The notes beneath the pieces are model-generated. The model did no database searches. It was not told the origin of the DNA and was given only the letters and a program-made list of their open reading frames with translations. From Sedimentibacter saalensis (lineage in GTDB: Bacteria > Bacillota > Clostridia > Tissierellales > Sedimentibacteraceae), in contig NZ_VLKH01000004.1 in NCBI RefSeq assembly GCF_007830175.1, positions 124,001 to 188,000 of the forward strand: DNA of 64,000 nt, in the 5' to 3' direction. A program made the translations under genes and the position numbers. Positions 16,160 to 56,731 of the stretch are shown here, one piece after another (the first letter of the stretch is position 1; every line of letters begins with the position of its first letter).

Positions 16160-17752
16160 TTATATTATGTTTCTATTTTTAAATCCTGCTAAACCGACGA
16201 GAGTAAAAGTTATTGAAAGCAGAACAAGCAATGACAGTGACAATGCTGACAGTTCATTAACTGGAATGCTGTAGTGAGCGTAACCAAACGGAGTAAGCTC
16301 CATTGCTGACCAGCCAACAATTCCTGCCTCCCACAGCATTTCTGTAACAATAAACAGTCCAAGTAAAAACCAGCTCAATACAGCAGAAATGCGCGGCATC
16401 CATCCATACAGCAATGATGTAATTCCAATTATAACCCAGACTGATGGTATTTTTGTCAAACTCATTACTATTGCCTTTGAAACTAATGACATGTCCCCTG
16501 ATGAATAGCCCCATCCCCATCCTACTGATGCCCCTAGGACTAAAAGTATAACAGCACTTCCTGCATATGCTATAATTAAATAACCGCTCATCAATTTGAT
16601 TCTGCTCACAGGCTGGGCTAACAACATTTCTGCAAAATGCTCTGACTCTTCTTTTTTAAGATTAAGTACTGTTGATATACCATAGACAGAAGTTCCTGCC
16701 ATGAGCCCCATAATATAAATGGTTACTGAAACAAAGCCTTCTCTGTTGCCGAGTTTTGACATAGTTTCTGCCCATGTGCTCATGTTCACTAGCATTTCAC
16801 TTATATTTTCAGATATGCTTGGAGTTATAAATCCAACAGCACCTCCTATAAAAGCCATGCCTATACACCAAACTATTATTGTTTTCTTATGCTGTCTTAA
16901 AGATAGCGCCAATGGACTCTTAAGTTCAGCAGAATCCTCCGGACCAAGCTTTTCCTTGAAAATACCTCTGCCTAAATCTCTGTTATCCATCAAGTAATAT
17001 GCAAAAGCAATAGGAATAATTGACAGCACCATAAAAACTAGCAAAGGAGAAAAATTATTTCCTCCAAAAGGCTCAGTTATTCTAAACCATGCTTCTGGAG
17101 CAAGCCATATCCAAAATGTGCTGCCGCCTCCAACATTGTTTATCATCATAGGAACCATGCTTAAAAAATAAAGTGCTAAAATAAAACCTCGTGCACTTCC
17201 GGAATCTTGAAAAATCTGTGATATGAGAACCCCAATTCCGGTAAAAATAAGTCCCACCGCACAAAGTGTCAATCCTGCCAATAAAGAACCTGTTAATGAA
17301 AATCCACTGATTATCATTATTATGGAGACAAACAATGCTGATATGAAACTTCCTGCAAAGCTAATAGCAATAGAAGCAGTTATGGCTGCATTTCTTCCTT
17401 TTCCGTTTCCATAAATCAATTCATATCTTCCGGACTCTTCATCGGAACGGGTATGTCTGATAGCGGTAAATGAACTTCCTATCATGACTGCAATAGATGA
17501 TTGAAGCATTCCGCGCCATAAAACCGCACCTTCCTTGCTCAGTGGCACAATTGGACCAAGGATTGCATTTGTAAGTGCATTAGCAGAAAGTTCTGCCATA
17601 AATTCACGCCAGTCAGCCATAGATTCAATGAAAGAAATCTGTCCGGCAATTAAAAATAACGGTAGCAGTATCCAAACAGGCAATATGAATCTGTCTCGGC
17701 GCAAATAAAATCTCAATAAATTTAACGTTCCTTTGAAGTTATTGTCAGCCAT
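16160..17752 (-). CDS. ABC exporter permease (530 residues)
   Basis: This membrane protein has about 12 hydrophobic segments and looks like two ABC2-type permease halves fused. Such exporters move drugs, antibiotics or lipids. The first half carries a large loop near ADWREFMAELSANALTNAILGP. It starts one base after the ATPase stop codon and belongs to the TetR-ATPase-permease operon. The cargo is not visible from sequence, but the autoregulated TetR suggests a toxic compound. Confidence 0.88.
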   Translation of the reverse strand: MADNNFKGTLNLLRFYLRRDRFILPVWILLPLFLIAGQISFIESMADWREFMAELSANALTNAILGPIVPLSKEGAVLWRGMLQSSIAVMIGSSFTAIRHTRSDEESGRYELIYGNGKGRNAAITASIAISFAGSFISALFVSIIMIISGFSLTGSLLAGLTLCAVGLIFTGIGVLISQIFQDSGSARGFILALYFLSMVPMMINNVGGGSTFWIWLAPEAWFRITEPFGGNNFSPLLVFMVLSIIPIAFAYYLMDNRDLGRGIFKEKLGPEDSAELKSPLALSLRQHKKTIIVWCIGMAFIGGAVGFITPSISENISEMLVNMSTWAETMSKLGNREGFVSVTIYIMGLMAGTSVYGISTVLNLKKEESEHFAEMLLAQPVSRIKLMSGYLIIAYAGSAVILLVLGASVGWGWGYSSGDMSLVSKAIVMSLTKIPSVWVIIGITSLLYGWMPRISAVLSWFLLGLFIVTEMLWEAGIVGWSAMELTPFGYAHYSIPVNELSALSLSLLVLLSITFTLVGLAGFKNRNII

Positions 17753-22635: not shown

Positions 22636-25002
22636 TTATTTCTTTAATTTTTCTACTATTCCATTTCCACCATCAACAATTACTCTGTCTCCGGTTTTTA
22701 GTCTTAATGTAGCATTACCACATCCCACAACTGCAGGTATTCCCATCTCTCGGGCTACAATAGCTGCATGTGACAGAGGTGCTCCAACATCAGTTACAAC
22801 GGCAGCTGCTCTTGGAAAAAGCGGTGTCCACCCTACATTGGTAGTTGTGGCTACTAATATTTCACCCTGCTGCAATTTATCACCTTCTTCCGGATTTAAC
22901 AGAACTCGAACCGTTCCTTCCACCTTGCCCCCTGCTCCGGGAAAACCCTTAAGTATTTCGGAATCTGGAGAAGTGCTGACAGTCTTTGAAGAATCATAAT
23001 AGTCCATTCTTCTGTTTTCATCCTTAATCCATTCCGAAGGATTAAATCGTCCTTTTATAATTGATGGAAATGGCGGTAATTCCTTAAATTTTTCATAGTT
23101 CGTTTTTCTTGCGGAAATAAACATCAATGATGATTCATCATTTTTTGTGAGTACATTTATAATATCATCAATGTAAAGAAAAAATACATCTTCACCAATT
23201 CCTATAATTTCTCCTGCTTTTAGCGCAAATGCTCTGTTGATTCTAAATACTCTTACTAACTCTGAACGCGCTGACTCTCTGTTTCTGGCCCCTTCTGCTG
23301 CCTTTTTTAATTGTTTGTCCAGCCATTTTGTTTTATTTGGAAACTTATCTTTATATCTTTTCAAAGCAACTTCAAACTTTGTACGTTGTTCATTCAATAG
23401 CTTATCTACATCCGTATCAGAAGCTGTAAATTCATTTATCTGTCTTTCAAGCCATGATTCATCCTCTGAAGGATCAGAAATTGATAGTTCAAACTCATGG
23501 GGACCCCTATGTCCATACAATTCTAAATATTCCTCTCGGCTTATGCTTCCTTTTACTACATTTGATATTCCAACAACAGGTCCAAGACTGGCAAGAACAG
23601 AATCTCCTCTTAGATTTGACAAAAGCGCATTAGAATCTTCTGCTCCTACCATTTCATTAAGTTTCTTGCTTAACGTCATGGCTATAACGGCTTTACTGCC
23701 CCCAGCCACATGTATCCACCATGCTTTTGAATTATATGGCTGAAGTTCATCATTCCATAAGGACAGCAACTCTTCAGGTGTACTAGCGACTTTAATCTTC
23801 TCTGAAATGTTCCTGCACCATTCAGGAGTATTCTTAATATGCTCATGCATATTTTTTGAAGCCTTCATTGTATTCTTTATTAAATTCTTTATTCTAGGAA
23901 ACATAATCTTAATTAATTCAAGACGTGCAAAGGGATAAACAGGTACATTCATTCCCTCCGGAAATTGTCCGAACAAGTCTCCCATAAGTGACATGCCTCG
24001 TTTTACATCAAAACCATACAAGGCTGTAATGGCTGATAATCTTTGACTGATATTTGAATATATTCTTCCACAAATATTGCCTGACCATAAAAAATATCCT
24101 GGAATAAAGCCAGATTCAACATCTAATGACCTTACTATACTCCATGTCAGTGGAGTTATGACATCAGGTATTGCTTCTCCAACATTTGTATTTACCCATA
24201 GACTGTCACCTGATAAACTTTCATTTATCTCATAAGTGTCTAAATTTCCTGATGTCAGAGTAGTTATTGGTCTACACTGCAGCAGATACAATTTTCCATC
24301 TGCAACAGCCCATTCAATATCCTGAGGACTCTTCATTTCCTTTTCTAGTTTTGAGGCATATTCATAAAGATCAGATGCATATTTTTTTAACTCATCCGGG
24401 CCGGAATATCTTCCTTTTGGGCGCATTAATCTAAAAGGAAAAGCGTCAGATTCTCCCGATACAAGCTGCTCACCTAGACCATGTACGTAATTTCCTATCA
24501 TATTTACATAGCTTCCTGTTATGGGATCAGCTGAAAACAATACACCAGAAACTTCAGAATTCACCATAAGCTGAACAACAACTGCTACCCTGTGAAACTC
24601 ATCGACACCTTGAACAGAGCTGTAGACTTTTACTCGCTGTGAATTCCTTGAATTAAAAACTGTATAAATTGCTTCTAAAATTTTATCATCTGTTTCTGCA
24701 TTTAATACTGTTTCAAATTCACCTGCAAATGATGCTGATTTTGAATCTTCACTTAAGGCTGACGACCTGACAGCAAACATTGCATCTTTATTATTTTTTC
24801 TAATTTCATTCAGTAAAAATTGTGTTTCTTGCCATGCTTCATTATTTAATATATCTTCTCTAAAAGCTGAGGGCAAAATTACAAAACCTTCAGGAACCGG
24901 ATAACCTCCCTTAAACATTTTAGCAAGCATTCCGCCTTTACCGCCTGCAAATTTATATAGTTCAGGACTTAATTCTCTGAAATGTTTTACAGTGTCTAGC
25001 AT
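22636..25002 (-). CDS. PEP/pyruvate-binding phosphotransferase (PEP synthase / rifampin-phosphotransferase-like)
   Basis: This 788-residue protein starts with a PPDK/PEP-synthase-type ATP-grasp domain (GGKGGMLAKMFKGGYPVPEGFVI, VRSSALSEDSKSASFAGEFETVL, DIEWAVADGKLYLLQCRPIT). A middle region follows, then the swivelling phospho-His domain (GAPLSHAAIVAREMGIPAVVG, His near residue 745). It lacks the C-terminal PEP-binding barrel of true PEP synthase and so looks like the rifampin phosphotransferase group, which inactivates drugs by ATP-dependent phosphorylation. The TetR gene two bases upstream also suggests an inducible detoxifying role. Substrate not shown. Confidence 0.85.
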   Translation of the reverse strand: MLDTVKHFRELSPELYKFAGGKGGMLAKMFKGGYPVPEGFVILPSAFREDILNNEAWQETQFLLNEIRKNNKDAMFAVRSSALSEDSKSASFAGEFETVLNAETDDKILEAIYTVFNSRNSQRVKVYSSVQGVDEFHRVAVVVQLMVNSEVSGVLFSADPITGSYVNMIGNYVHGLGEQLVSGESDAFPFRLMRPKGRYSGPDELKKYASDLYEYASKLEKEMKSPQDIEWAVADGKLYLLQCRPITTLTSGNLDTYEINESLSGDSLWVNTNVGEAIPDVITPLTWSIVRSLDVESGFIPGYFLWSGNICGRIYSNISQRLSAITALYGFDVKRGMSLMGDLFGQFPEGMNVPVYPFARLELIKIMFPRIKNLIKNTMKASKNMHEHIKNTPEWCRNISEKIKVASTPEELLSLWNDELQPYNSKAWWIHVAGGSKAVIAMTLSKKLNEMVGAEDSNALLSNLRGDSVLASLGPVVGISNVVKGSISREEYLELYGHRGPHEFELSISDPSEDESWLERQINEFTASDTDVDKLLNEQRTKFEVALKRYKDKFPNKTKWLDKQLKKAAEGARNRESARSELVRVFRINRAFALKAGEIIGIGEDVFFLYIDDIINVLTKNDESSLMFISARKTNYEKFKELPPFPSIIKGRFNPSEWIKDENRRMDYYDSSKTVSTSPDSEILKGFPGAGGKVEGTVRVLLNPEEGDKLQQGEILVATTTNVGWTPLFPRAAAVVTDVGAPLSHAAIVAREMGIPAVVGCGNATLRLKTGDRVIVDGGNGIVEKLKK

Positions 25003-27186: not shown

Positions 27187-28236
27187 TTACTTAACTGTAC
27201 ACTTTCTTATGTTATCTGCAAATTTCTTTGCCTTTTCATTGATGTTTTCAATTTTTTCCACTTCACCGTAATCATTGGCCGTTTCCATCAGGGCAAATTC
27301 CGGTGGAAGCATGAATGTCTTGTTAATGTTCAGGGCACTTATGAGCTGCTGTGCAATTATGTCACTTCCGCTGAATCCTGAAACAATAACTGCATAGACA
27401 TACTTGTCATAAAACTTAAATTTTCTGAACAGTGCTGTGAGCCTGTTTATTGCAGCTGACATGTTTGCGCTTATGGAATCATTGTAATTTGGGCATACCA
27501 TCACAAGTACATCACAGTTTATTATTGCAGGGTATATTTCTTCAACCATCACACCTCCGTAAAAACAATTGTTGCTTTGGGAATAGTGCTTGCATGCCTT
27601 GTAAGAACATCCCTTGCAGTCTCTTACAGAGCCATTTTCAATATGTATTTCATTTATGTCAAATTCCTCTAAATTGTTTTTGACCATTTTCCAGAGAGAC
27701 AAAGTGTTTGATGTGTTGTAGTTGCTGGCATGAAGAGCAAGTATTTTTGGTCTGTCAAGTTTGTTAGGGTTAAATTCCATAAGTTTGTCAACAACGCTTT
27801 TGCATTCCTGCAAACACACTTCCTCCAGACTTAAATCAGTCATTTTTTTTCGAGTGTTAAGGTTTTTTAATGAGCCTGTGGCTTCTGACAGAGGCCTTCC
27901 TGGAAACATACAGCCAGCCATATTTGCATAGAGAATTGTTTTTCTTGCTATATCTCTTGAAAAAAGTTCGTTGTTGCTGTTTATAATAATGCTTCCAGCT
28001 GAATTTTCCATAAATTTTTCCCCGGACATTCTTATTTTTTCAAGCATTTTAAAATGCTCAATATTGATGCCGGACTCTCCCAGTTCAACTGCAAACAAAA
28101 TTTTCTTATTTTTCAAGTCATTAACTTCTTCACTTGCCCTGAAGATTACAGCTTCACGACCTTTCAATGAAAATTCAAGCATATTTTCAAGTCTAAGTGA
28201 TATTTCCCCGGGAATGAAAACATTTAGTTTTTCCAC
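27187..28236 (-). CDS. Flavodoxin-fold NAD(P)H oxidoreductase with a long N-terminal extension
   Basis: This 349-residue protein has a flavodoxin/FMN-reductase domain from about residue 160 on (PKILALHASNYNTSNTLSLWKMV, DCKGCSYKACKHYSQSNNC, CDVLVMVCPNYNDSISANM). The first ~155 residues are a divergent extension I do not recognise, with SAGSIIINSNNELFSRDIARKTI-like text that could be a degenerate related fold. The Cys-rich loop fits an iron-sulfur or disulfide site. It lies 78 bases after the LDH-like gene on the same strand and may belong to that cluster. A short GAGG/CCTC hairpin with a T-run follows it. Confidence 0.8.
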   Translation of the reverse strand: MEKLNVFIPGEISLRLENMLEFSLKGREAVIFRASEEVNDLKNKKILFAVELGESGINIEHFKMLEKIRMSGEKFMENSAGSIIINSNNELFSRDIARKTILYANMAGCMFPGRPLSEATGSLKNLNTRKKMTDLSLEEVCLQECKSVVDKLMEFNPNKLDRPKILALHASNYNTSNTLSLWKMVKNNLEEFDINEIHIENGSVRDCKGCSYKACKHYSQSNNCFYGGVMVEEIYPAIINCDVLVMVCPNYNDSISANMSAAINRLTALFRKFKFYDKYVYAVIVSGFSGSDIIAQQLISALNINKTFMLPPEFALMETANDYGEVEKIENINEKAKKFADNIRKCTVK

Positions 28237-28314: not shown

Positions 28315-29544
28315 TTAATCTAATTTTATTTTTTCATTTATAATTTTTGATAATTCATCATATGTATGCCTGATTCTTGCAAAAAGTTCATCCGGCATTT
28401 GTATTTTTTCAATTTCAAGGCCGGAAGGAAGATTTCTGTTTTTTGCGCCCATGAAAACTCCCCCAAGAAAGTTAGAGCTGTAATGAAATTTTCCTTCAAG
28501 AGTGAGTATTATTGATATTGCCCCCGAAGAAAGTGCCGGTGCTATGTATGGTTTGAACCCTGTTTTTCTCACTTCGAGATTTGCTTCCACTGCAAGTTTT
28601 GTGAGTTCTTTTGATAGTTTGTCATCGTAGTTTTCTATGCTGTTTGCTATTACAAGGTCGTTTCCGTGCGGTCCGAAGGCCCTTCCTTCACTCAGGTAGG
28701 AAGAATATTCATTGTATTTTTTTGCGTAGTACATTGCTCTTGCATTCATTACACCAAGCCCGTAGCCTTTTATTTGCTCAGGTTTAAGCACACCTTTGCT
28801 TTCTTTTAAAACAGCAGCGCACAGCAAATCAACGGGATCTGAAACCACAGCAAATATTCCTTTGAAATTTTCATGGGCAGCCTGAGCTGCATATTCCTGT
28901 ATGAGTTTATAGTTTTCTTCAAACTGAACCATTCTAACATCAACACTCTCGCTTCCAACGGGCGGGACTCCCTTAGAAGCACAGAACACGAACATATCGC
29001 AGTCAAACAGTTCATTTTTTTCTACACCATGCACATGAGGAAGAGAATCTTCAAATGGAAATGCTGTCTGGTTCATTTCATATTCCCATCTGTTGATTTT
29101 ATCCTGGCTTCTGTCATATATTCCTATGGATTCAACTGCATTTCCCCCAAGAAGCTTAAGACCTGTAAGAAGTGTGCTTCCCACATCTCCAAGAGCCAGT
29201 ACGTTCACTCTTTTTTTCTTAATTTCATCCATAATGAAACATTGTTCATAATCATCGTAATCCGCATTTACGGCCTTTACTTTTCTTTCACAGATTAAAT
29301 TCATGATTTCTTCCGGCACTTCTTTTTCAAAGTCATCAGTACCGATTTTCAGGAGTTCAACTCCCTCACCCAACGTGAAAAGGTCAGCCGCACTGCATAC
29401 GGCGTAAGTTCTTTTTGAACTGTTCCTGTCAGATTTGTACAAAAAATATAATTCATTTGCATCTGCTGGAAGAATTGTTTTTTCATAGCCAAAATCCTGA
29501 GCTGAAAACATATATTTATCTTTATATTTATAATAGTTAAACAT
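28315..29544 (-). CDS. LDH/MDH-like dehydrogenase with N-terminal extension
   Basis: This 409-residue protein is related to lactate/malate dehydrogenases. An unrecognised N-terminal region of ~110 residues precedes the NAD fold (VNVLALGDVGSTLLTGLKLLGG). AVVSDPVDLL matches the conserved V-S/T-N-P-V segment with Asp for Asn, and GRAFGPHGNDLVIA carries the catalytic-type His. Arg-containing VRMVQFEENYKLIQEY corresponds to the substrate helix. Its ATG overlaps the stop codon of the giant multidomain gene by one base (TAATG), so the two are translationally coupled and probably work together. The true substrate is unknown. Confidence 0.78.
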   Translation of the reverse strand: MFNYYKYKDKYMFSAQDFGYEKTILPADANELYFLYKSDRNSSKRTYAVCSAADLFTLGEGVELLKIGTDDFEKEVPEEIMNLICERKVKAVNADYDDYEQCFIMDEIKKKRVNVLALGDVGSTLLTGLKLLGGNAVESIGIYDRSQDKINRWEYEMNQTAFPFEDSLPHVHGVEKNELFDCDMFVFCASKGVPPVGSESVDVRMVQFEENYKLIQEYAAQAAHENFKGIFAVVSDPVDLLCAAVLKESKGVLKPEQIKGYGLGVMNARAMYYAKKYNEYSSYLSEGRAFGPHGNDLVIANSIENYDDKLSKELTKLAVEANLEVRKTGFKPYIAPALSSGAISIILTLEGKFHYSSNFLGGVFMGAKNRNLPSGLEIEKIQMPDELFARIRHTYDELSKIINEKIKLD

Positions 29545-32500
29545 TATTTTATAATCCTCTCCAGCTTTATTAATGTTTCAATGCTAACATCCATGTAACC
29601 GGAAGCTTCCATGTTCAAATCGTAATAAATATTGTCTCCAAGGTAAGGAAGCCTAGGAGAAAGCAGTACTTCACCAAGTCTTTTTACAGTAAGTTTTTTC
29701 TCATATAAATCCTGAAATTCTGCTTCAAGAACATGAAGTATGTTTTTAGCGTTTTCAAGACTTACCATGGACAAATTGTAAATTGCTTCATTTGTAGCAC
29801 CACTGATGTACATAGGCGAATAATATGGAAGTATCAGGTTTATTGACGGTATGAGATTAAGCATGTTTTCATTGTTAAGCCACATTCCGTCACCGCCTAA
29901 AAACGGGTACATGAGGTTTTCATTGAACCAAATTCTCAGATTTGGTATGAAATATGCGCAGTCAGCGTCTCTTCCCTGAATGTCCATAAGGTCCTTACCA
30001 CGGCCTGACATTATTCCAAGGATTATTTTCTTTACTTCAATGTTGTGCTTCTTGAGTATAGGGTCAAGTTCCTTTATTCTGTAACCTTTGTGCAGCAAGT
30101 CGTCTACTAGGATAACAGGCTTTTCAAATGACTTTATAGTCTTCACCTGGTTTTCTATAGGTGAATAAAAAGGATATTCAGTTATCATAAACTGTGCTGC
30201 ATCTGTTGAATAAACTTTTTCTGTATGAAGAGATTTAGTAACGGTGTTCGGCACAACCATTCCCTTTAAAATATTGCCGAAAGGAACGCACATGTAGTCG
30301 CCTATTACTTTAGGAACCTGCACTTCGTTGCTTACGTTGTTGATGCTGCATATTTTGTTTATGAGAGTCTGGTTTATCATGTCATTGTCGATTGAAAGAA
30401 CCAGACTTCCTGGATACAGCTCAGTCATTGATTTCTGAAGCCTTTTTCTGGCGTTAACAATTGCTTCGTGAACCCTCGGATTTGTGTTCAATGGTTCCTT
30501 TATGAAGCTTTCAAGGTTCAATGTGAGGCATACAGGGAACTTCATATCTACTGCATAGACAGTCTTGCTCTGCCTTTCATCCTTTATTTCCCTGAACCCC
30601 TGAAGCTCCAGCGTTTCAATTACAGTTTCGCTGTTTGTGTTTGAAAGTATGTTGTAGTACATTGCATAAGTAAAATCATTTTTAAGGCAATGAGCCAGCG
30701 TTTCCGTGATTAATATCTGCTCCATGTTATCATATAACTTGCTTGGGTTAATAAAAATTCCGTCTATTATAATGAGTCTGCCTGCAGTTTTTTCACGAAC
30801 ATGGTTAGCGATGTACTGGCTTTCAAACTCTGAGTATACTTCTGAAGAGCCTATCTGGTGGAATGCTGAAAATCCAAGAAGCTTGTTGGAATTTTTGCTG
30901 TCTCTAATAACAAGAAGCTTTATTTTTTTGGAAATCAATTTTTCACCTATATTTTCATACAGGTTTGTGTACATGAAAATATAGTGCCCTATTTCATCCA
31001 CGATTTTCTTGCTTAAATCTTCAACAATTTCTATTACAAAAGGTTTTGACTTCAACACGCTCTTGTTGAGAGGCTCCCTTATGTAAAGGTTTCTGTCGTA
31101 TATGAAGCTTTGAGCAAGAGGATCTATGAGGTTGGAGATGTCTCTGTTGTTGTCTATGTTTTCTCTTATTTGTGTTGAGCTTATATCCTCAAGGTAAAGA
31201 GGAAGCTGAAGCTCTACAAGGGAACCCTTTATTCTAGCCTTAGTTTCTTCGGCTTTTTTCACAGAACTTACTGACATATCGTCTTTTGTTCTCTTGAATA
31301 CTATGTGGTTGAAACTGTGAATTGAGTTCTTTGTAGGACGCGATTTGTATGCTGTTGCATTCATCAATACATCGCTTCCCACAACAATATAAATATCCTT
31401 TTCAGGAAACAAAGATTTAAGCCCCTTCAGGTCTGCAGCGTTTGAAAGGTTTATTGGAATATCATCAGGAAACAAAAATACACCAAGTTCATCTGCTATA
31501 GACATGTTAATTATCTGACGCCTTATAAGTCTTGGCTGGACTTTCTTGGACCAGGAAAATTCATCAACAGCAAGGTAGACGTCATAGCCGAGATTTCTTA
31601 TTTCTGTAACAATTCCTTTATGGCTCAGTGAAAACGGGTCGAATGTTCCCGGGAAAAACGCGATGTTTTTATTTTCATTTATGTTGAAATTCTTGAAATT
31701 GAATTCATATTCATTGATAAAACGGTAAATGTGGTTGAATGAAGCTGAATTGTTGAAGAAAAACAAGTCTCCCATTTCCCTCTCGTTTATAAGGGTGAGA
31801 AGTTTTTTGTAAATCAAAAGAAACACCTTGTTTTTTTCTTGAAGCGTCAGCTTTTTTGAGCCAAATATGTGCTGCCCTATTACAAGGAATGTTTCCTGCT
31901 TTACCTGCATGTTGTAATTTGCAAGGCCGCTTAATATTATTCCAAGTATTTTTACAAGCCTCTTGTTATATGTGCCATCATCCTCGCCGAATCTTTCCTT
32001 GTATTCAGGATAGTGCTGTACCATCACTCCAAGCGTATTTATTACCAATGCGCTTGCTCTTTCGTTTGTACCTTTGTATATATTGTTAAGCTCTGCGATA
32101 AACTCATCAAGTTCCTTTGGATACAATAGCATTACAAATTTCCCCAGGTATTCAGGGATGTATTTTGCGTATTGAAGTTCATCAATTTCCAAGCCTTTTA
32201 TAAGCTCAACTGCAATTTCGTTTCTCTGGTCAATTGTAAGAAGAGGTCCTATTTCAACAAGTGAGTTTCCTGCCTTGTTTCTTACGGATTCCTTTGCACT
32301 TACTTTCACAAGGTTTGCTAGATGTGTTGCTGTCTGAAGTAATGCAACGTCATTCTTATTCTTTATGTGATCCATTATATAGTCTATGCTAATGGTTTTT
32401 ACATTCCATGGCGTAGCTGTCTTCAGATTGTTTAGGAACAAGTCTGAAGTCTTATACCTGCTGCTTGTGATAAGGGTCTTGTACTTAGTGATTAAATCAT

Positions 32501-34412
32501 AGGACATGTTCATATTTTTGGCTATTTTATATTTAAGATAGTTTATGCACAGTCCGTCATTTTCAGAAATAATGGATGTCAGATCATATATTTTTTCAAG
32601 AGATGAGCTTATATTAGCTTTGTTTTTTACAACAAGATTGAAAAACTGAACTGCCATGAGCCTTACATCGCTTGCAGGATTGTCCAGTGAACCAATTGCA
32701 TAATCAATGATATAATCAAGCTGTTCAGGTTCATACAAATCAACCGGAATACTCAAAAGAGAATTCAGGCAGCTTAATTTAGCCATATATTCATTGTTTT
32801 CTGTTTTATAATAGTCTAAAAGAAGATTTAAGTAGCTCTTCTTGTTGTTGTTTCTTTTTGAGTTTATGACTGAATCAACAAATATTCTCAGTGAATATCC
32901 GATCCATTCCTTGTGGTTGTCTGTTACCTTGTATCCCGGATCAAGAAAAAGTCCTAAATATTTGTCCCACAAAGCAAGACCGGTCATCTCTTCATTTATT
33001 TCAATTTTTACGTCATCAGGAATTTCTTTTGTATATTCCAGATCAAATGAAACAATTATTATACCCATAAGGTTTGCAGCCTGACGTCTTATGTCGCCTT
33101 CCCTGTGAACCAGAAGTTCATATAAAAAGCTTAGGGTAAACAACTTTTCTTTCTGTGAAAGATAAATAGAATACTCTTCAAGTATATTCAGATAAGATCT
33201 TAGGTTTTTCCAATCCTGTTCACTTCTTGCAGCTTCTATCATGCTTGTGAAGTTTATTTCATTGTTCAGTTTGCTCATGAGTGTTGTATTGTGTGATATT
33301 GCCATGTATTTAAAATTTTCAACAACATCATATCCATCTATGAGAGCATAATCTATTATTTTGTCAGGAGAAGGCTCCTCGGTTTTAAAGTCTATGTTTA
33401 TGCCTTTGTGTATGATGAAGTTTTCAAAATCCTTCAACTTTGAATACACTCTCATGTATCTCTTTTCTTTTGCTTCGTCCACATTGTCAAGTTTGTCAAG
33501 AATTATCTGAAATGATTCACTCAAATCGTATATGTGCATTTCATAGCCGTTTTTTGACTGCTTGTTTTTCACTCTGAAATCTGCATATATCAAAATAAGG
33601 GATTCAAGAGGTAGATTTTCAAGTTCCAAATCCCAAGTGGAATGGTTTGCCGCAATAAGAGATATGCTTGGCATGTTGTATTTCATGAACCATTGGTCTG
33701 TGTAATAGTAATGAAGATATGCAACTCTTCTTTTTTCAAGTCCCTTGCATCCGTACTTACCTATGTCATGGCCAGCTGCTGCCCCGGATACAAGCCCTAA
33801 GTTTACGTTAATTCCTACTTTCTTTAGCTGTCTTGCAACATGCATTGCAACATAGTGTACAGCAGTAACATGTTTTAATGTGTTGTAGCCGTTTACTTCA
33901 GCATCAAGCATCATCAATTCGTATATATAATTTTTGTCAAACTTATCCAAAAAGTTAACATATTCGTCAGGATTTGGAAGATCGCTGATCTCTTCTTCAG
34001 ACAGGAATTTGAAATCTGCAAACTTGTCGTAAACATCGCTGTTTTTTGCGTGACTCAGTATTGTTCTTAATATTTCCAGGTATATGAGAGCTCCGTTTTC
34101 ATATTTGGGATTAAGCTTAATGGTTGCTGCTTCTGGGAACGATTTGTGTAAGACATACTGAAAAATATAAGAAAGCCAGTCTTTGGGAGCTTCAGAACAA
34201 ACAATGTCAAGTATGTCAACTGAAAGGTCGATTACATCCTTGCACATGAACTGTTTTTTGTTTATAAGAATCAGCAGATTATTTACAAATTTCTTATTTA
34301 TTATAAATGACTGCATCTTTTCTTCGGAATAATTTATTCTTTTCAAAAACTCTTTTTGAGTCAAACTTAATAATATCTCTTTGTGCAATTCGTTCAACAT
34401 AAATCTGCTCAT
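29544..34412 (-). CDS. Giant multidomain protein: HD hydrolase, helical repeats, NadD-like, GNAT-like, phosphoribosyltransferase-like
   Basis: This is a cytoplasmic protein of 1622 residues. Residues ~180-290 are an HD domain (His186, GHDIGKYG with His215-Asp216, NHSTWD at 256-261). Residues ~340-900 are all-helical and look HEAT/armadillo-like. Residues ~915-1115 are a nicotinate-mononucleotide-adenylyltransferase-type fold, with FFPGTFDPFSLSHKG (GTFDP at 922-926, His931), VVGSD at 1010-1014 and ISSTQIRENI from 1077. Residues ~1120-1290 resemble a GNAT fold. Residues ~1300-1520 resemble a type I phosphoribosyltransferase, with PVILVDDLLHKGYR at 1432-1445. No domain looks broken. HD plus NadD recalls the YqeK/NadD pair of NAD metabolism. 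The combined function is unknown to me. Confidence 0.8.
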   Translation of the reverse strand: MSRFMLNELHKEILLSLTQKEFLKRINYSEEKMQSFIINKKFVNNLLILINKKQFMCKDVIDLSVDILDIVCSEAPKDWLSYIFQYVLHKSFPEAATIKLNPKYENGALIYLEILRTILSHAKNSDVYDKFADFKFLSEEEISDLPNPDEYVNFLDKFDKNYIYELMMLDAEVNGYNTLKHVTAVHYVAMHVARQLKKVGINVNLGLVSGAAAGHDIGKYGCKGLEKRRVAYLHYYYTDQWFMKYNMPSISLIAANHSTWDLELENLPLESLILIYADFRVKNKQSKNGYEMHIYDLSESFQIILDKLDNVDEAKEKRYMRVYSKLKDFENFIIHKGINIDFKTEEPSPDKIIDYALIDGYDVVENFKYMAISHNTTLMSKLNNEINFTSMIEAARSEQDWKNLRSYLNILEEYSIYLSQKEKLFTLSFLYELLVHREGDIRRQAANLMGIIIVSFDLEYTKEIPDDVKIEINEEMTGLALWDKYLGLFLDPGYKVTDNHKEWIGYSLRIFVDSVINSKRNNNKKSYLNLLLDYYKTENNEYMAKLSCLNSLLSIPVDLYEPEQLDYIIDYAIGSLDNPASDVRLMAVQFFNLVVKNKANISSSLEKIYDLTSIISENDGLCINYLKYKIAKNMNMSYDLITKYKTLITSSRYKTSDLFLNNLKTATPWNVKTISIDYIMDHIKNKNDVALLQTATHLANLVKVSAKESVRNKAGNSLVEIGPLLTIDQRNEIAVELIKGLEIDELQYAKYIPEYLGKFVMLLYPKELDEFIAELNNIYKGTNERASALVINTLGVMVQHYPEYKERFGEDDGTYNKRLVKILGIILSGLANYNMQVKQETFLVIGQHIFGSKKLTLQEKNKVFLLIYKKLLTLINEREMGDLFFFNNSASFNHIYRFINEYEFNFKNFNINENKNIAFFPGTFDPFSLSHKGIVTEIRNLGYDVYLAVDEFSWSKKVQPRLIRRQIINMSIADELGVFLFPDDIPINLSNAADLKGLKSLFPEKDIYIVVGSDVLMNATAYKSRPTKNSIHSFNHIVFKRTKDDMSVSSVKKAEETKARIKGSLVELQLPLYLEDISSTQIRENIDNNRDISNLIDPLAQSFIYDRNLYIREPLNKSVLKSKPFVIEIVEDLSKKIVDEIGHYIFMYTNLYENIGEKLISKKIKLLVIRDSKNSNKLLGFSAFHQIGSSEVYSEFESQYIANHVREKTAGRLIIIDGIFINPSKLYDNMEQILITETLAHCLKNDFTYAMYYNILSNTNSETVIETLELQGFREIKDERQSKTVYAVDMKFPVCLTLNLESFIKEPLNTNPRVHEAIVNARKRLQKSMTELYPGSLVLSIDNDMINQTLINKICSINNVSNEVQVPKVIGDYMCVPFGNILKGMVVPNTVTKSLHTEKVYSTDAAQFMITEYPFYSPIENQVKTIKSFEKPVILVDDLLHKGYRIKELDPILKKHNIEVKKIILGIMSGRGKDLMDIQGRDADCAYFIPNLRIWFNENLMYPFLGGDGMWLNNENMLNLIPSINLILPYYSPMYISGATNEAIYNLSMVSLENAKNILHVLEAEFQDLYEKKLTVKRLGEVLLSPRLPYLGDNIYYDLNMEASGYMDVSIETLIKLERIIK

Positions 34413-34625
34413 AATATACCTCTAAAATTAGATTTAATTGCACACATTATATCATAGTCCAAAGTTTACTGCAAGAATATCATAAAATTCACAAACCATC
34501 ATAATTCAACAAAACAAACGATTTACCCTTGTAAAATATTCCGAAATGTATTATATTAAATTACACATGAAATCATTTTATTTAATAAATAAATTGCATA
34601 ACAAATAAAATTATTGGAGGCTAAA

Positions 34626-35519
34626 ATGTTTTTATTGACTTATTTTTACGAGGGTTCAGAAGCTGCAGGATTTCTGAATAGTAACAAGAATGGTATCATT
34701 CCTGCATCCGTTGTATTTTCAAAATTAAATGTTCCGGCACCTTCAAACATGCTAAATATAATTGATGTTTTTGATGATTTGGAATTGGATAAAATCAATG
34801 AGGCAATTGTATCCTGTTCTGAATTTATTGACTTGGATAAAGTTAAAATTTTGTCTCCAATTCCTTACCCCAGAAGAAACGTAATTTGTCTTGGAAAAAA
34901 TTATCTGGATCATGTTAAAGAAGTTAAAAATCTGAAAAATGTAAGTGCTGACATACCGTCAAAACCTATATATTTCAGCAAAATTGCATACCCTGCCATA
35001 GGTCAGGAAGATTTTGTTGATATGCACCAGGGAATTGTCAAGGAACTGGACTATGAAGCAGAGCTTGCTGTCATAATAGGCAAGAAAGGCAAGAACATAT
35101 GTAAGGAAGAGGCAGAAGACTATATATTCGGATATACAATTTGCAATGATATTTCTGCCAGGGATTTGCAGCAAGAACACGTGCAGTGGCACAAGGGAAA
35201 ATCATTTGATACATTTTGCCCATTAGGACCGGTAATTGCTCATAAATCAACAATTGCATTCCCGCCTGAGCTTGAAATAAAAAGCTTCATCAACGGAGAA
35301 ATCAGACAAAACAGCAACACTAGACAACTCATATTTGACATACCAACAATAATAAGCGACCTTTCAAGTGGCATCACACTATATCCGGGAGACATAATCC
35401 TAACAGGAACACCTGCAGGAGTTGGAGCAGGATTTAATCCTCCGAAATATCTTAATCCCGGAGATAAAATGGAATGCTTCATAGAAGGAATAGGAACTCT
35501 TGTTAATACTGTAAAATAA
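34626..35519 (+). CDS. Fumarylacetoacetate-hydrolase-family protein
   Basis: This 297-residue FAH-fold hydrolase starts at the ATG at 34626 with GGAGG eight bases upstream; the frame opens at a TTG at 34614. The N-terminal ~70 residues are the small cap domain. The catalytic domain shows ICLGKNYLDHVKEV, the metal-binding ELDYEAELAVIIGKKG, GYTICNDISARDLQ, KSFDTFCPLGPVI and LTGTPAGVGAGFNPP. Relatives are acylpyruvases, oxaloacetate decarboxylases and 2-hydroxyhepta-2,4-diene-1,7-dioate isomerases; substrate unclear. Its stop codon abuts that of the convergent DUF4363 gene with no spacer. Confidence 0.92.
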   Translation: MFLLTYFYEGSEAAGFLNSNKNGIIPASVVFSKLNVPAPSNMLNIIDVFDDLELDKINEAIVSCSEFIDLDKVKILSPIPYPRRNVICLGKNYLDHVKEVKNLKNVSADIPSKPIYFSKIAYPAIGQEDFVDMHQGIVKELDYEAELAVIIGKKGKNICKEEAEDYIFGYTICNDISARDLQQEHVQWHKGKSFDTFCPLGPVIAHKSTIAFPPELEIKSFINGEIRQNSNTRQLIFDIPTIISDLSSGITLYPGDIILTGTPAGVGAGFNPPKYLNPGDKMECFIEGIGTLVNTVK

Positions 35520-35903
35520 TTAAAAAATATTATCCAGTGCAAGACATTCATTTTCCTTAATAATATTAAATTGTATTCTTAAGTGCTCAAGCTCTGCTTG
35601 AGCCATATTTTTATCTTTGTTTTTAATGAAAGACTGTAGCTTTTTAATGGAAGAATCAATGTTGTCAATTTCATCCTGGTTGATGAAGTACACCCACAGA
35701 CCTCTTGCTTCTTCCCACCTTCTGTAATGACTTTCATAATCGACTTCTGCTTTTACCCAGTTTCCTTCTTCAATGACTTGTGATAAAAGAAACAGATTTT
35801 CCCAGTAATATGAGGTGACCGGCTCCACCGACGTGAAATGAAACCATACCCACACACCTATCATCACAATCAATACTATCAATGAAATAATTACCATTCT
35901 CAT
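35520..35903 (-). CDS. DUF4363-family membrane-anchored protein
   Basis: This 127-residue protein has one N-terminal transmembrane helix (residues 4-24) and a helical outer domain (YYWENLFLLSQVIEEGNWVKAEVDYESHYRRWEEARGLW). That is the pattern of DUF4363 proteins, which in Clostridia usually follow a DUF421 gene, as here three bases downstream of it. Function unknown. Confidence 0.8.
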   Translation of the reverse strand: MRMVIISLIVLIVMIGVWVWFHFTSVEPVTSYYWENLFLLSQVIEEGNWVKAEVDYESHYRRWEEARGLWVYFINQDEIDNIDSSIKKLQSFIKNKDKNMAQAELEHLRIQFNIIKENECLALDNIF

Positions 35904-35906
35904 ATG

Positions 35907-36545
35907 CTACCTCTTATAAAAAATAAATTTATCTTCTTCATCAACAAAACCATACAGTACCTGCCGGGATTTAAGCTTATTCTTTTTAAGCTCGTCTTGT
36001 AAATCAGATTCTGAAATATTAAACTTCTCAAGATTTTTCTGCATTATTTCCCCGTCAAGAATTACTGCTATGGGAATTCTTGCGCATCTTTTCCCAGGCT
36101 CTTCATCAGGAGCAATGATGCTCATTTCTCCGTTTGTCTCCATAATCAGGTAATCTATGTCTTCAACGCTGTAATACCCTTTAAGCCTCATTTGCCCAAG
36201 AACATCATTGACATTGATCCTCAGCTTGTTCATGTCCTTTGTGTTGAATTGTCCATGATCTATTATTATGGTAGGAGTGCCGCATATTATTTTTCTAGCC
36301 TTGTTGCTCTTCAATGTGACATAGGATATGAAGCACTGCAAAAACATAATAACAGCTATGGCCATGAAACCATGGACCAAGGGAGCTCCAAGATCTTCCA
36401 TGGGCATAACTGCAAGCTCTGCAAGCATAAGTGAAACTACAAGGTCAAAAGGCTGAAGCTCGCCCAGCTCTCCCTTTCCCATTATTCTCATTGACAAAAG
36501 CAAAATTGCATACAGTATTAATGATCTGATAGCAACAATAATCAT
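35907..36545 (-). CDS. DUF421 (YetF-like) membrane protein
   Basis: This 212-residue protein has three N-terminal membrane segments (SLILYAILLLSMRIMGKGELGELQPFDLVVSLMLAELA is the DUF421 signature). A soluble C-terminal YetF-type domain follows (TPTIIIDHGQFNTKDMNKLRINVNDVLGQMRLKGYYSVEDID). B. subtilis relatives are spore- or envelope-linked. It forms an operon with the DUF4363 gene. Confidence 0.92.
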   Translation of the reverse strand: MIIVAIRSLILYAILLLSMRIMGKGELGELQPFDLVVSLMLAELAVMPMEDLGAPLVHGFMAIAVIMFLQCFISYVTLKSNKARKIICGTPTIIIDHGQFNTKDMNKLRINVNDVLGQMRLKGYYSVEDIDYLIMETNGEMSIIAPDEEPGKRCARIPIAVILDGEIMQKNLEKFNISESDLQDELKKNKLKSRQVLYGFVDEEDKFIFYKR

Positions 36546-36584
36546 TTTTACCTCTCTGTTTAAAGTTATCTAAAAATGCTAAAA

Positions 36585-36621
36585 ACAAATGAAGCATAAA
36601 AGTGAATTTTGCTTCATTTGT
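36585..36621. repeat. Hairpin in the DUF421-PIN/TRAM spacer
   Basis: Arms ACAAATGAAGC (36585-36595) and its exact complement (36611-36621) lie between the DUF421 start and the PIN/TRAM terminator. A T-run follows on the minus strand, so it may be a backup terminator. Confidence 0.5.
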
Positions 36622-36639
36622 ATTATTGGTTTATTGCAT

Positions 36640-36669
36640 AAAAAAAATACTCATTTCTGAGTATTTTTA
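36640..36669 (-). terminator. Terminator of the PIN/TRAM gene
   Basis: AATACTCA (36646-36653) and TGAGTATT (36658-36665) form a stem followed on the minus strand by six or more Ts, five bases from the stop codon. Confidence 0.85.
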
Positions 36670-36673
36670 TTGT

Positions 36674-37765
36674 TTATACAGCTTTGTTTATTACGTTTTT
36701 AAGTTTTGCAAAAATCATTCTTCCTGCTGCAGTCTGTAAGACGCTGGTAACAGTAACCACAACAGAATCTCCAATACACTTTTTGCCGCCTTCCACAACT
36801 ATCATTGTGCCGTCGTCAAGATATGCAAGTCCCTGGCCTGATTCTTTTCCGTCTTTAACAACCATGACGGTCATTTCTTCTCCTGGAAGAACTATCGGTT
36901 TAACCGCATTTGCCAGCTCGTTGATGTTTAACACCTCAACTCCCTGGAACTCAGCAACCTTGTTCAGGTTAAAGTCGTTGGTCAGAACCTTACCCCCAAG
37001 TTCCTTTGCAAGTTTTAAAAGCTTCACATCCACTTCAATGTTGTCGCCGTAATCCTTTGATTCAATCAAAACATTTACAGTGTCATCTTTCTGAAGAATA
37101 TTTAAAATATCCAGACCTCTTCTTCCTCTGTTTCTTTTAAGACTGTCGGAAGAATCTGCTATGTGCCTTAGTTCCTTAAGGACAAATTCAGGAATTACAA
37201 GTGTGCCTTCAATAAATCCTGTCTTGCAAATGTCGGAAATTCTACCGTCAATAATAACGCTTGTATCAAGTATCTTTGGTGAAACAATTTCTTTTTTCGC
37301 ACTTTTGTCTTTCTTAACCGGCTGGACTTTTTTAAGATTTAACTGTGGCCAAATAACATCGTCTTTTTTTCTTGTGGATATTTTTATTCCCAAGTAACCA
37401 AACAACAAGTATGACAATATGGAAACTATTGTTCCAACATACTTTATGTCAGCAAATGGCTGGCTTATTAAAAAAGCTATAACAAACCCAACAATAAGAC
37501 CCAAGGCGCCCCAGATAATATCAATAGTTGAAAATTTCATCAATTCCCTTTCGAAAGCTTCAGCTATTCTCTGACCAGTCTTTTTAATTTTAACAGAAAG
37601 TAGAAAAAATATTATTCCAAAAATTAAACTGATACCAATAATTATTAAAATGTTTTGCAAACCTGATAATTTAAGAAGACCATTTTGATTTAACACTACA
37701 CCTATAAAAGCCCCTATAGAAGCTCCTATGGTAGTAATAACTGCTCTTACAATTTTATCTATCAT
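36674..37765 (-). CDS. PIN/TRAM-domain membrane protein (YacL family)
   Basis: This 363-residue protein has four N-terminal membrane segments (residues ~5-145). A PIN nuclease-like domain follows ([54 protein letters not shown], holding the acidic residues), then a C-terminal TRAM RNA-binding segment ([20 protein letters not shown]). YacL-type proteins are widespread in Firmicutes and are thought to act on RNA at the membrane; the target is unknown. It is downstream of carD, as is common in Clostridia. Confidence 0.93.
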
Positions 37766-37918
37766 TTAATCACCTCCTTAGTAGTATACCCAAATTTTGT
37801 TATATTATTTAATGTAACACATTTTTTCTTATTTGGCTACATTTAAATGAAATTATACCCCATTTTTATTAAACAAATCTTAACCTGCATAAAAAAAGAA
37901 TGCACTAAGCATGAGCTT

Positions 37919-38413
37919 CTAAACATTCAGTGCATCTTCATTTATTATATTGTCCAAATATTCCTGAATTCCGTTGGAGTCTGTCTCTGTTGAAAGTGAA
38001 ATTTCACTTACAAGCATCTGCTTTGCGCTTACAAGCATTTTCTTTTCTCCGGTTGAAAGACCTTTCTCCTTGTCCCTGTATGTCAGATCCCTCACCACCT
38101 GGGCAACTTCAAAAATGTCTCCTGTCTTCATTTTAATCATATTATCGCGGAACCTTTTGTTCCAGTTGGAATCATTCAATACCGCAGCCTGCTTTAATAT
38201 GCTGTAGACTCCTTCAACAAGACTTTTATCAATAATGTTTCTCAAGCCGATATTGTTTACATTGTCAACAGGTATCATAAGCTTCATTTCACCAATCGGC
38301 ATTTTCAAAACGTAATAACTTTTTACTTCGCCTAAAATTTCCTTAGATTCCAATGTCTCTATTACCCCAGCTCCGTGCATGGGATAAACTACCTTATCTC
38401 CTAAATTAAACAT
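37919..38413 (-). CDS. carD: CarD-family transcription regulator
   Basis: This 164-residue CarD/CdnL-type protein binds RNA polymerase beta and stabilises open complexes. The N-terminal RID Tudor-like domain (FNLGDKVVYPMHGAGVIETLESKEILGEVKSYYVLKMP) and C-terminal helical DNA-binding part (WNKRFRDNMIKMKTGDIFEVAQVVRDL) are complete. AGGAGG precedes the ATG, and a near-consensus promoter lies just upstream. Confidence 0.93.
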   Translation of the reverse strand: MFNLGDKVVYPMHGAGVIETLESKEILGEVKSYYVLKMPIGEMKLMIPVDNVNNIGLRNIIDKSLVEGVYSILKQAAVLNDSNWNKRFRDNMIKMKTGDIFEVAQVVRDLTYRDKEKGLSTGEKKMLVSAKQMLVSEISLSTETDSNGIQEYLDNIINEDALNV

Positions 38414-55777: not shown

Positions 55778-55794
55778 GTTTCTCCTTTCGAATG

Positions 55795-55819
55795 TACCCT
55801 CCGCAAATTGCGGAGGGTA
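55795..55819. other. Intercistronic hairpin between ftcD and hutI
   Basis: TACCCTCCGCA (55795-55805) and its exact complement (55809-55819) form an 11-bp stem with a 3-nt loop. No T-run follows on the coding strand, so it is more likely a processing or stability element than a terminator. Confidence 0.7.
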
Positions 55820-55825
55820 GTTTCC

Positions 55826-56719: not shown

Positions 56720-56731
56720 GATTTTCTCCTG

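Follow-up and report, generated by a model that had tools for sequence, protein, structure and literature searches.

A 1622-residue HD, NadD-like, GNAT-fold and phosphoribosyltransferase-like fusion protein of Clostridia is part of a three-gene system with a dehydrogenase and a flavoprotein

Among described systems, the nearest to the locus analysed here is the YqeK-NadD fusion of mycoplasmas (JCVISYN3A_0380), in which an HD diphosphatase and NadD are joined in one protein and to which a proofreading role is ascribed (PMC9426524). YqeK itself (COG1713) is an Ap4A hydrolase, and its six-residue H...HD...H...H...D pattern marks a dinuclear site, according to a review (PMC8177086). In the NARP1 pathway (Adps-Namat), which resembles the present case in its phosphoribosyl-type chemistry around NAD, Namat is a homologue of Nampt (PMC12774641). 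An earlier inspection of the DNA (hereafter the sequence-only reading) had likened the HD and adenylyltransferase parts of the large protein to YqeK and NadD, and the published fusions make this analogy apt. The large protein differs from the mycoplasma fusion in that its HD domain is N-terminal and a HEAT solenoid lies between HD and NadD; it also has additional GNAT and phosphoribosyltransferase (PRTase)-like domains, differences at several NadD positions and two accompanying redox genes. From NARP1 it differs in that the NARP1 pathway is without an adenylyltransferase step. No paper on this architecture, for which the sequence-only reading had been unable to name a function, or on the gene trio was found in a literature search judged by titles and the openings of abstracts and covering few subscription papers.

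The window is the whole 64,000-nucleotide stretch of Sedimentibacter saalensis contig NZ_VLKH01000004.1 (positions 124,001 to 188,000) that was analysed, and the features considered here are collected in Table 1. The 1622-residue open reading frame codes for a real protein that is common to scattered anaerobic bacteria. Homologues were found in 26 of 27 family genomes, several of them as contig fragments, and in two further orders at E<=1e-40 (8/21 and 11/61 genomes). Within the class, 22 of 245 genomes carried the large protein at this threshold, some copies being cut by contig ends. In a phylum sample of 398 genomes there were 44 with a match, which extended over most of the length in eight (the own genome counted, and two of the eight in two pieces) and was confined to the NadD-like region in the remaining 36; the full-length form is thus retained in distant Bacillota. 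These homologues across family, phylum, class and two further orders ruled out a chance reading frame, and a single-ORF artefact or frameshift fusion was discarded because many genomes carry the identical architecture in one frame. The searches covered Bacillota genomes together with plasmid, phage and viral collections, and no homologue was present in 50,697 phage records and none was confirmed in viral contigs. A mobile element was also provisionally rejected, judging by the neighbours, as genes other than the trio vary between lineages.

Table 1. Features of the large gene and its two partner genes, with positions in the window
Feature	Position	Strand	Basis
Large multidomain protein	29544..34412	(-)	ATG start, 1622 aa, whole ORF with stop
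N-terminal helical segment, residues 1-140	33993..34412	(-)	Predicted structure model
HD domain, residues 141-340	33393..33992	(-)	TIGR00295 and HDIG (weak); Pfam HD in homologues
HEAT/ARM-like alpha-solenoid scaffold, about residues 341-905	31698..33392	(-)	Model; Pfam HEAT
NadD/NMNAT-like adenylyltransferase domain, residues 914-1112	31077..31673	(-)	Profile, sequence and structure matches
GNAT-fold domain, residues 1123-1291	30540..31046	(-)	Structure match; no clear CoA pyrophosphate loop
Type I phosphoribosyltransferase-like domain, about residues 1310-1550	29763..30485	(-)	Weak profile matches
Partner 1, lactate/malate-dehydrogenase-like protein, 409 aa	28315..29544	(-)	Profile match; alignment
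Partner 2, FMN_red protein with CX2CX4CX8C, 349 aa	27187..28236	(-)	Pfam; alignment

From the N- to the C-terminus the protein consists of HD, HEAT-like solenoid, NadD-like adenylyltransferase, GNAT fold and PRTase-like domain. The sequence-only reading had proposed five enzyme-like modules fused around a helical scaffold; of these, the NadD and GNAT folds were borne out by the structure model and the HD domain by its candidate ligands, while the PRTase part is likely and stayed under the Pfam cut-off. The motifs that it had named were located at residues 922-931 (GTFDP..H), 1012-1014 (GSD), 1077-1083 (ISSTQIR) and 1436-1443 (VDDLLHKG), and the HD residues at H181, H215-D216 and, further on, H234, H257 and D278. 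Mean identity to the window protein was 62% for HD, 62% for NadD, 55% for PRTase, 44% for the scaffold, 37% for GNAT and 33% for the fast-evolving N-terminal segment. A single-sequence PDB search with the large protein returned NadD-type chains only (E 0.015 and 0.24).

The six residues H181, H215, D216, H234, H257 and D278 are candidate metal ligands and follow the pattern of YqeK-type dinuclear HD diphosphatases. Each is found in 52 of 53 rows, with the partnerless copy L083 as the one exception, and all six are invariant in the 31 rows of another alignment. The pattern is common to YqeK, whereas spacing and context differ and the profile match is marginal: comparison with a profile of 10 YqeK-like rows, selected by motif, gave a weak hhalign E value of 0.009 (probability 4.6%), and a single YqeK sequence gave no useful match. 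Pfam HD was matched in 7/14 members, the domain searched alone retrieved two HD phosphohydrolases at E values too weak to count (0.057 and 0.12), and a profile of the HD/solenoid half had no match at E below 0.03. The region also scored 30.1 bits against the DVU_1551 NTP-transferase model, whose cut-off is 315. The helical part, for which the sequence-only reading had raised the question of a HEAT-like structure, is a HEAT/ARM-like alpha-solenoid in the model (about residues 377-909), and Pfam HEAT was detected in 4/14 members.

Evidence for the NadD-like domain came from a CTP_transf_like match over cut-off, a Foldseek match to 5lm3 (E 9.2e-9) and, in a confident model, a fold match to 4rpi_B (Z 18.3, rmsd 2.6, 186 aligned); the NCBIfam NadD equivalog TIGR00482 scored 43.4 bits, under its cut-off of 112.45. 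The domain has in common with NadD/NMN adenylyltransferases the fold, GTFDP, the second His of HxGH (53/53 rows), GSD and ISSTxIR, of which S1078, S1079 and R1083 are each kept in 51/53 rows. It differs from them in that the first His of HxGH is Ser or Thr (S/T928) in 53/53 rows, the base-pocket Trp (10/10 in ordinary NadDs) is Tyr (Y1022, 52/53), and three further positions are unlike: W954 (53/53; F/I in ordinary NadDs), N988 (53/53; D/E/K/Q) and D994 (50/53; T in 10/10), the alignment being less sure in the loop that holds these three. The 10 ordinary NadD rows came from 23 candidate loci and were selected with a pattern demanding HxGH and SSTxIR, so these two motifs are 10/10 by construction and the Trp and the other positions are unselected. 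D950 and E951 are not distinctive, since ordinary NadDs have D (8/10) or E (2/10) at 950 and E in 2/10 at 951. The ATP-side motifs are kept and several mononucleotide-side positions differ uniformly. Because the first His of HxGH is lost, adenylyl transfer by this domain is not certain. The host genome has an ordinary nadD followed by a yqeK-like gene at another site, and a role as substitute for the housekeeping NadD was therefore rejected.

The GNAT fold, which the sequence-only reading had left to structure prediction, was found by comparison with 6yga_A (Z 13.8, rmsd 3.2, 146 aligned). The acyl-CoA pyrophosphate loop of GNAT acetyltransferases has the motif R/QxxGxG/A. In relaxed form this pattern occurred in 12/53 rows, always at the far end of the stretch (RDFAYA type), and not in the window protein; with no recognisable loop of this kind, it is unsafe to name the domain an acetyltransferase. 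For the C-terminal domain, type I PRTases have a PRPP loop of the form [VIL]3-D-D-x-x-x-[TS]-G. The loop-like positions D1437 (52/53), D1438 (49/53) and G1443 (52/53) are conserved, the T/S position is Lys in 44/53 rows and otherwise N, H, T, R, S, Q or Y, and N1389, T1390, T1392, K1393, H1396 and K1399 are also conserved. Pfam Pribosyltran scored 14.6 bits in the window protein, under the curated cut-off of 26.3, and matched 28/37 members at E<=1 (best 6.4e-4). The region searched alone gave weak matches to PRPP synthetase and HPRT (E 0.058 and 0.076), and a viral fold search returned NMNATs and GNATs and, weakly, a UMP synthase (E 1.5e-3) and a protein with a PRTase domain (E 1.7e-3). The fold matches listed were filled by NadD and GNAT chains and included no PRTase, which is not evidence against a PRTase fold. 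These profile matches, weak but consistent, suggest that the domain is likely a PRTase.

The large gene belongs to a three-gene system, newly recognised here, that also comprises a dehydrogenase and a flavoprotein. The three class searches were taken as one set of 245 genomes because the listed negatives agree. At E<=1e-40, the large protein was found in 22 of these genomes, the dehydrogenase in 21 and the flavoprotein in 20, all nested, and neither partner occurred in any of the 223 class genomes without the large protein; Fisher tests that treat genomes as independent gave p values of 1.8e-29 for the dehydrogenase and 2.1e-27 for the flavoprotein. In 42/52 loci the dehydrogenase gene immediately follows the large gene in the same orientation, and in two more it lies some 5.5 kb further on; the flavoprotein gene directly follows the dehydrogenase gene in 40/43. 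In the window, the start of the dehydrogenase gene and the stop of the large gene overlap by one base. The survey of homologues and neighbours suggested by the sequence-only reading thus shows a conserved fusion followed by a dehydrogenase and then a flavoprotein, and its proposal of a self-contained pathway is not supported, as the near-perfect co-occurrence and conserved gene order tie in two further genes. Beyond the trio, each neighbouring gene family is found at 11 or fewer of the 52 loci. In G326, G661 and G662 the partners are not adjacent to the large gene and are present elsewhere in the genome. Nesting is imperfect over the whole survey: G664 (68% complete) contains a flavoprotein fragment, the large gene and the dehydrogenase not being found there. 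The partners missing from the class genomes G587 and G649 fall in incomplete assemblies (84 and 82%), and the G649 dehydrogenase runs into a contig start. Locus L164 is truncated at a contig end, which bears the start of the dehydrogenase gene.

The NadD motif set is intact in all 44 copies with a local partner and not intact in 3 of the 8 without (Fisher p 0.0025, a value that ignores the relatedness of the copies). L165 and L172, both orphan copies, are sisters, so that the decay counts as two independent events. In L172 it is mild (SST to SPA), with a NadD identity of 51%, slightly below that of its intact relatives L161, L170 and L177 (55-59%). G423 has diverged further: compared with its relative G398, identity to the window protein is 30 versus 68% in HD and 39 versus 70% in NadD, while GNAT (60 versus 62%) and PRTase (53 versus 62%) are better preserved. 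Locus L147 (G660, 79% complete) carries a large gene with intact motifs and no partner was found. As judged from the alignments, therefore, the NadD site, and once also the HD site, has decayed in some partnerless copies in which the PRTase-like part is largely conserved. Since the orphans with a decayed NadD site are still full-length open frames, part of the protein would have a role outside the cycle proposed below.

Partner 1 belongs with the L-lactate/malate dehydrogenases by its Rossmann domain (profile against 4q3n_A, E 3.4e-9) and by R204, R269 and H293, present in 45/45 rows, which we take to be the Arg, Arg and His positions acting on 2-oxoacids in LDH. It differs from that family in having Met at the catalytic Asp position (45/45), which leaves the LDH catalytic set incomplete, SDP in place of SNP (45/45) and, in most rows, some 110 additional residues at the N-terminus. 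The NAD-type Asp is present in 41/45 rows, with Ser, Gly or Ala in the other four. Partner 2 shares with iron-sulphur flavoproteins and NADPH-dependent FMN reductases an FMN_red domain (Pfam, over cut-off, E 4.3e-22) and four Cys conserved in 44/44 rows, and differs from them in an N-terminal part of about 160 residues without Pfam match; no PDB sequence relative was detected at E 0.01. It is probably an iron-sulphur flavoprotein, the four Cys being candidate ligands of a cluster.

We tentatively propose that the large protein is the core enzyme of a hitherto undescribed system of three genes for making and handling a nucleotide, a reading that we prefer to the others but regard as possible rather than probable. 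The C-terminal PRTase-like domain would join a base to PRPP, the NadD-like domain would adenylylate the resulting mononucleotide, probably not NaMN, to a dinucleotide, and the YqeK-like HD domain would cleave faulty or spent product, in line with the YqeK-NadD fusion already described. The modules, and perhaps the partners too, would be held by the HEAT solenoid, with the dehydrogenase and the flavoprotein running redox steps on, or with, the nucleotide. The architecture, the conserved gene order, the near-obligate co-occurrence and the decay in partnerless copies are observations, and from them we infer the cycle, with all its substrates and the sequence of its reactions. The sub-threshold PRTase match with its variable loop position, the weak YqeK match, the lost first His of HxGH, the imperfect nesting and the full-length orphans with a decayed NadD site speak against it. 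Its most specific form, in which the trio makes and uses a new NAD-like dinucleotide redox cofactor by means of the PRTase-like and NadD-like domains, HD proofreading and dedicated redox enzymes, appears unlikely to us; the NAD-type Asp of the dehydrogenase is equally compatible with ordinary NAD(P) and with a new dinucleotide.

This same Asp, the NadD fold and motifs and the proofreading described for HD-NadD fusions (PMC9426524) would also agree with a specialised unit for NAD salvage or repair. Ordinary NAD(P), or the deamido form, would then be built from one particular precursor by the PRTase-like and NadD-like domains, with HD as proofreader, and the redox pair would do no more than use or repair NAD(P)H. 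We consider this somewhat doubtful, given that the same genome has an ordinary nadD, that the base-pocket Trp is Tyr, the first His is lost and W954, N988 and D994 are unlike NadD, and that salvage alone has no obvious need for a dedicated dehydrogenase and flavoprotein. The NadD-like and HD domains might instead make and break an Ap4A-like dinucleotide in signalling or regulation, with HEAT and GNAT contacting targets and the redox proteins as sensors. YqeK cleaves Ap4A, according to the review (PMC8177086), and scaffold and GNAT evolve faster than HD, NadD and PRTase; however, the invariant catalytic-type residues of both redox partners resemble those of turnover enzymes, and the scarcity of recurrent gene families outside the trio likewise makes signalling rather improbable.

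Activation of a carboxylate with ATP by the NadD-like domain, in the manner of the citrate lyase ligase CitC, with the LDH-like protein sharing the 2-oxo or 2-hydroxy acid, was considered as well. The host genome protein L005, presumably CitC-like by its motif and its GNAT-plus-nucleotidyltransferase make-up, also lacks the first His (NPFTNGH), and the Arg, Arg and His presumed to act on 2-oxoacids are conserved in the dehydrogenase; nevertheless, NadDs rank first in whole-domain sequence and structure matches and the NadD GSD and ISSTxIR are kept, so that we hold this for quite improbable. An anti-phage defence or counter-defence, like the NAD-depletion and NAD-reconstitution systems, would find a precedent in the NAD-type enzymes known from such systems (NARP1; PMC12774641). 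It is, however, highly improbable: the three proteins matched no PADLOC family at E 0.1, the large protein is absent from the phage records and confirmed in no viral contig, and it is carried by nearly all family genomes.

Should the trio make an unusual nucleotide, anaerobic metabolism would gain a pathway and perhaps also a cofactor. On a more modest reading, it is a clear and testable set of three co-travelling genes, in the large one of which the NadD site, and once also the HD site, decays in partnerless copies, and it presents an HD-NadD pairing of the proofreading kind embedded in a far bigger machine. The system is carried by Sedimentibacter, Acetoanaerobium and other Clostridia, and Acetoanaerobium noterae has the three genes found in the window.

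The 1622-residue fusion that the sequence-only reading had proposed proved to be a genuine open reading frame of the 3.8-Mb host genome (contig C4). Within the family, 26 of 27 genomes carry a homologue. Matches at E ≤ 1e-40 occurred in 22 of 245 genomes of the class and in 8 of 21 and 11 of 61 genomes of two further orders; of 398 genomes sampled across the phylum, 8, its own among them, had a match over most of the length. Among named records 11 relatives (72–97% identity) were found, from Sedimentibacter and from MAGs labelled Firmicutes, Tissierellia or Clostridiales bacterium. When 14 diverse members (33–80% identity to the window protein) were aligned, the mean column identity was 57%, with conserved motifs throughout the length. 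This spread and conservation indicate that the large protein is real and old.

Features of the window, with their positions and main attributes
Feature	Position	Strand	Remarks
Large multidomain protein	29544-34412	(-)	1622 aa; ATG start
LDH/MDH-like dehydrogenase	28315-29544	(-)	Next after large gene, 1-base overlap; Pfam Ldh_1_N over cut-off
FMN_red flavoprotein	27187-28236	(-)	After dehydrogenase gene; FMN_red match
Fumarylacetoacetate-hydrolase family	34614-35519	Opposite to large gene	Directly upstream of large gene
DUF4363, YetF-type DUF421, PIN-TRAM, CarD	35520-38413		In this order, beside the trio
PPDK_N/PEP-utilizer protein	22636-25002		788 aa; flanked by two TetR regulators
Imidazolonepropionase-like amidohydrolase, urocanase	54518-58798		Probably a histidine-degradation cluster
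ORF	16160-17752		530 aa; no Pfam match at E 1e-5

The survey of homologues and neighbours that had been proposed uncovered a three-gene system. The dehydrogenase gene lay within the same stretch as the large gene in 44 of 52 loci, always on the same strand; the two abutted in 42 (38 by the initial distance cut-off and four with stop-to-stop frames overlapping by 151–271 bases) and were about 5.4–5.6 kb apart in 2 more. Every gene family outside the trio was confined to at most 11 of these 52 loci. In the class sample (n = 245, E ≤ 1e-40) the partners were nested within the 22 genomes carrying the large gene, the dehydrogenase being present in 21 of them, the flavoprotein in 20, and neither in genomes lacking the large gene. 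In three genomes (G326, G661 and G662) the partners were not adjacent to the large gene and lay together elsewhere. Acetoanaerobium noterae also carries the trio. Among the exceptions, G423 (98% complete, one contig) and G660 (79% complete) carried the large gene while no partner passed the thresholds applied, and G664 (68% complete) had a flavoprotein fragment without the large gene or the dehydrogenase. In one MAG locus (L014, 7980-15162) all three genes were broken into overlapping frames, probably by assembly errors.

Searched against Pfam, the window protein alone matched only a cytidylyltransferase-like domain; the 14 members added HD (7 of 14) and HEAT (4 of 14) at E ≤ 0.05. Two AlphaFold2 models, one for each half and each from a 51-row alignment, had mean pLDDT values of 87.8 (residues 1-912) and 89.4 (residues 905-1622). 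In the first the N-terminal half was almost entirely helical, and residues from about 377 to 909 aligned with HEAT/ARM solenoids (PP2A scaffold, CAND1, karyopherins); these matches may reflect a shared arrangement alone. The suspected HD module was recovered at residues 141-340, where the candidate ligands H181, H215, D216, H234, H257 and D278 were each present in 52 of 53 aligned homologues. The same six-residue pattern occurs in YqeK and is diagnostic of a dinuclear site, according to a review (PMC8177086).

In the second model, residues 914-1112 matched NadD structures (Z about 18) and residues 1123-1291 matched GNAT structures (Z up to 13.8). For the GNAT-like module the fold stood and the CoA pyrophosphate loop did not: its pattern was found at the expected position in 0 of 53 rows, and a relaxed pattern in 12 of 53, where each match lay at the distant end of the segment. 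For the putative phosphoribosyltransferase (PRTase) assignment of the C-terminal part there were weak, consistent Pfam matches (28 of 37 members, best E 6.4e-4), any other family matching at most one of the 37. Here N1389, T1390 and T1392 were conserved in 53 of 53 rows, K1393 and H1396 in 52 and K1399 in 50, which would fit a working site better than a remnant.

The NadD-like module retained GTFDP, the second His, GSD and ISSTxIR, which we take to be ATP-side motifs. Its 53 rows were compared with 10 ordinary NadDs, and since these had been picked by HxGH and SSTxIR, only the remaining positions are free comparisons. The large protein has S/T928 in place of the first His of NadD (a residue of the HxGH selected for), W954 and N988 in all 53 rows (the loop around 940-956 being less surely aligned), D994 in 50 rows where ordinary NadDs have T, and Y1022 in 52 where they have W. 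By alignment, the first His is also replaced in the Vibrio NadD-like protein 3h05, as it is in a CitC-like protein of the window's genome, so that this replacement alone does not imply lost activity. The genome also contains an ordinary nadD followed by a gene presumed, from motif and position, to be yqeK-like. The differing positions and the separate nadD make NaMN a less likely substrate.

The best PDB profile match of the dehydrogenase was 4q3n_A (E 3.4e-9). R204, R269 and H293 were present in 45 of 45 rows and align with two LDH arginines and the LDH histidine; it differs from LDH, again in 45 of 45 rows, in having Met266 at the Asp position and SDP for SNP. The roles of these Arg, Arg, His and Asp positions are presumed from LDH. 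An Asp, characteristic of NAD binding, follows the second strand in 41 of 45 rows (Ser, Gly or Ala in 4). Together these residues would suit a substrate resembling a 2-oxo- or 2-hydroxyacid, used with an ordinary dinucleotide of the NAD(P) type. In the flavoprotein, C207, C210, C215 and C224 (CX2CX4CX8C; 44 of 44 rows) suggest an iron-sulphur cluster.

The NadD motif set was intact in all 44 copies having a local partner and altered in 3 of 8 without one, namely the G423 copy and second copies in G565 (L172) and G608 (L165), genomes in which a single dehydrogenase gene accompanies the other large-gene copy. These second copies, without redox partners and with changed NadD motifs, remain open over their full length. 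Since they are sisters, the alterations point to two independent events. Compared with that of the related G398, the G423 copy had lost most identity to the window protein in HD (68% down to 30%) and NadD (70% down to 39%); the falls were smaller in the solenoid (52% down to 38%), the N-terminal helices (49% down to 39%), the C-tail (58% down to 42%), PRTase (62% down to 53%) and GNAT (62% down to 60%). L165 and L172 had HD identities of 58 and 62% and PRTase identities of 50 and 54%, all near the values of intact relatives; NadD identity was 41 and 51%, against 55–59% in L161, L170 and L177, the fall in L172 being small. From these counts and falls, the NadD step, with the HD step in one lineage, tends to be retained where redox partners are retained; other parts of the protein retain a role in their absence.

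The individual parts of the large protein are already known, and we place it with the HD-NadD nucleotide enzymes. The published model for this logic is a YqeK-NadD fusion of a minimal mycoplasma, in which YqeK proofreads in NAD synthesis (PMC9426524). The best joint reading, which we consider possible rather than probable, is that the PRTase-like part would form a mononucleotide from a base and PRPP, the NadD-like part would adenylylate it to a dinucleotide, the HD domain would edit or recycle this product, and the dehydrogenase and flavoprotein would perform redox work; substrates and step order are putative, as are the parts played by GNAT and HEAT. Rival explanations are ordinary NAD salvage or repair; CitC-like carboxylate activation by the NadD-like part; dinucleotide signalling; and defence, which is disfavoured, the three proteins having no PADLOC match at E 0.1 and the large protein no homologue in 50,697 phage records and none confirmed in viral contigs. 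A bolder version of the preferred dinucleotide pathway would make the trio a route to a new NAD-like cofactor, which the dehydrogenase residues do not demand. No description of the five-part protein or the trio was found in the literature covered, which was incomplete.

The DUF4363/DUF421/PIN-TRAM/CarD order adjoins the system in most Sedimentibacter-type loci examined, and G423 keeps these neighbours despite the loss of both redox partners. The fumarylacetoacetate-hydrolase-family gene grouped with relatives in 7 of 52 loci. The PPDK_N protein resembles PEP synthase and phosphotransferase models, far under their cut-offs; among 19 loci compared, only L006 shared both TetR genes and a close copy of the protein (91%), and L082 had a distant partial match.
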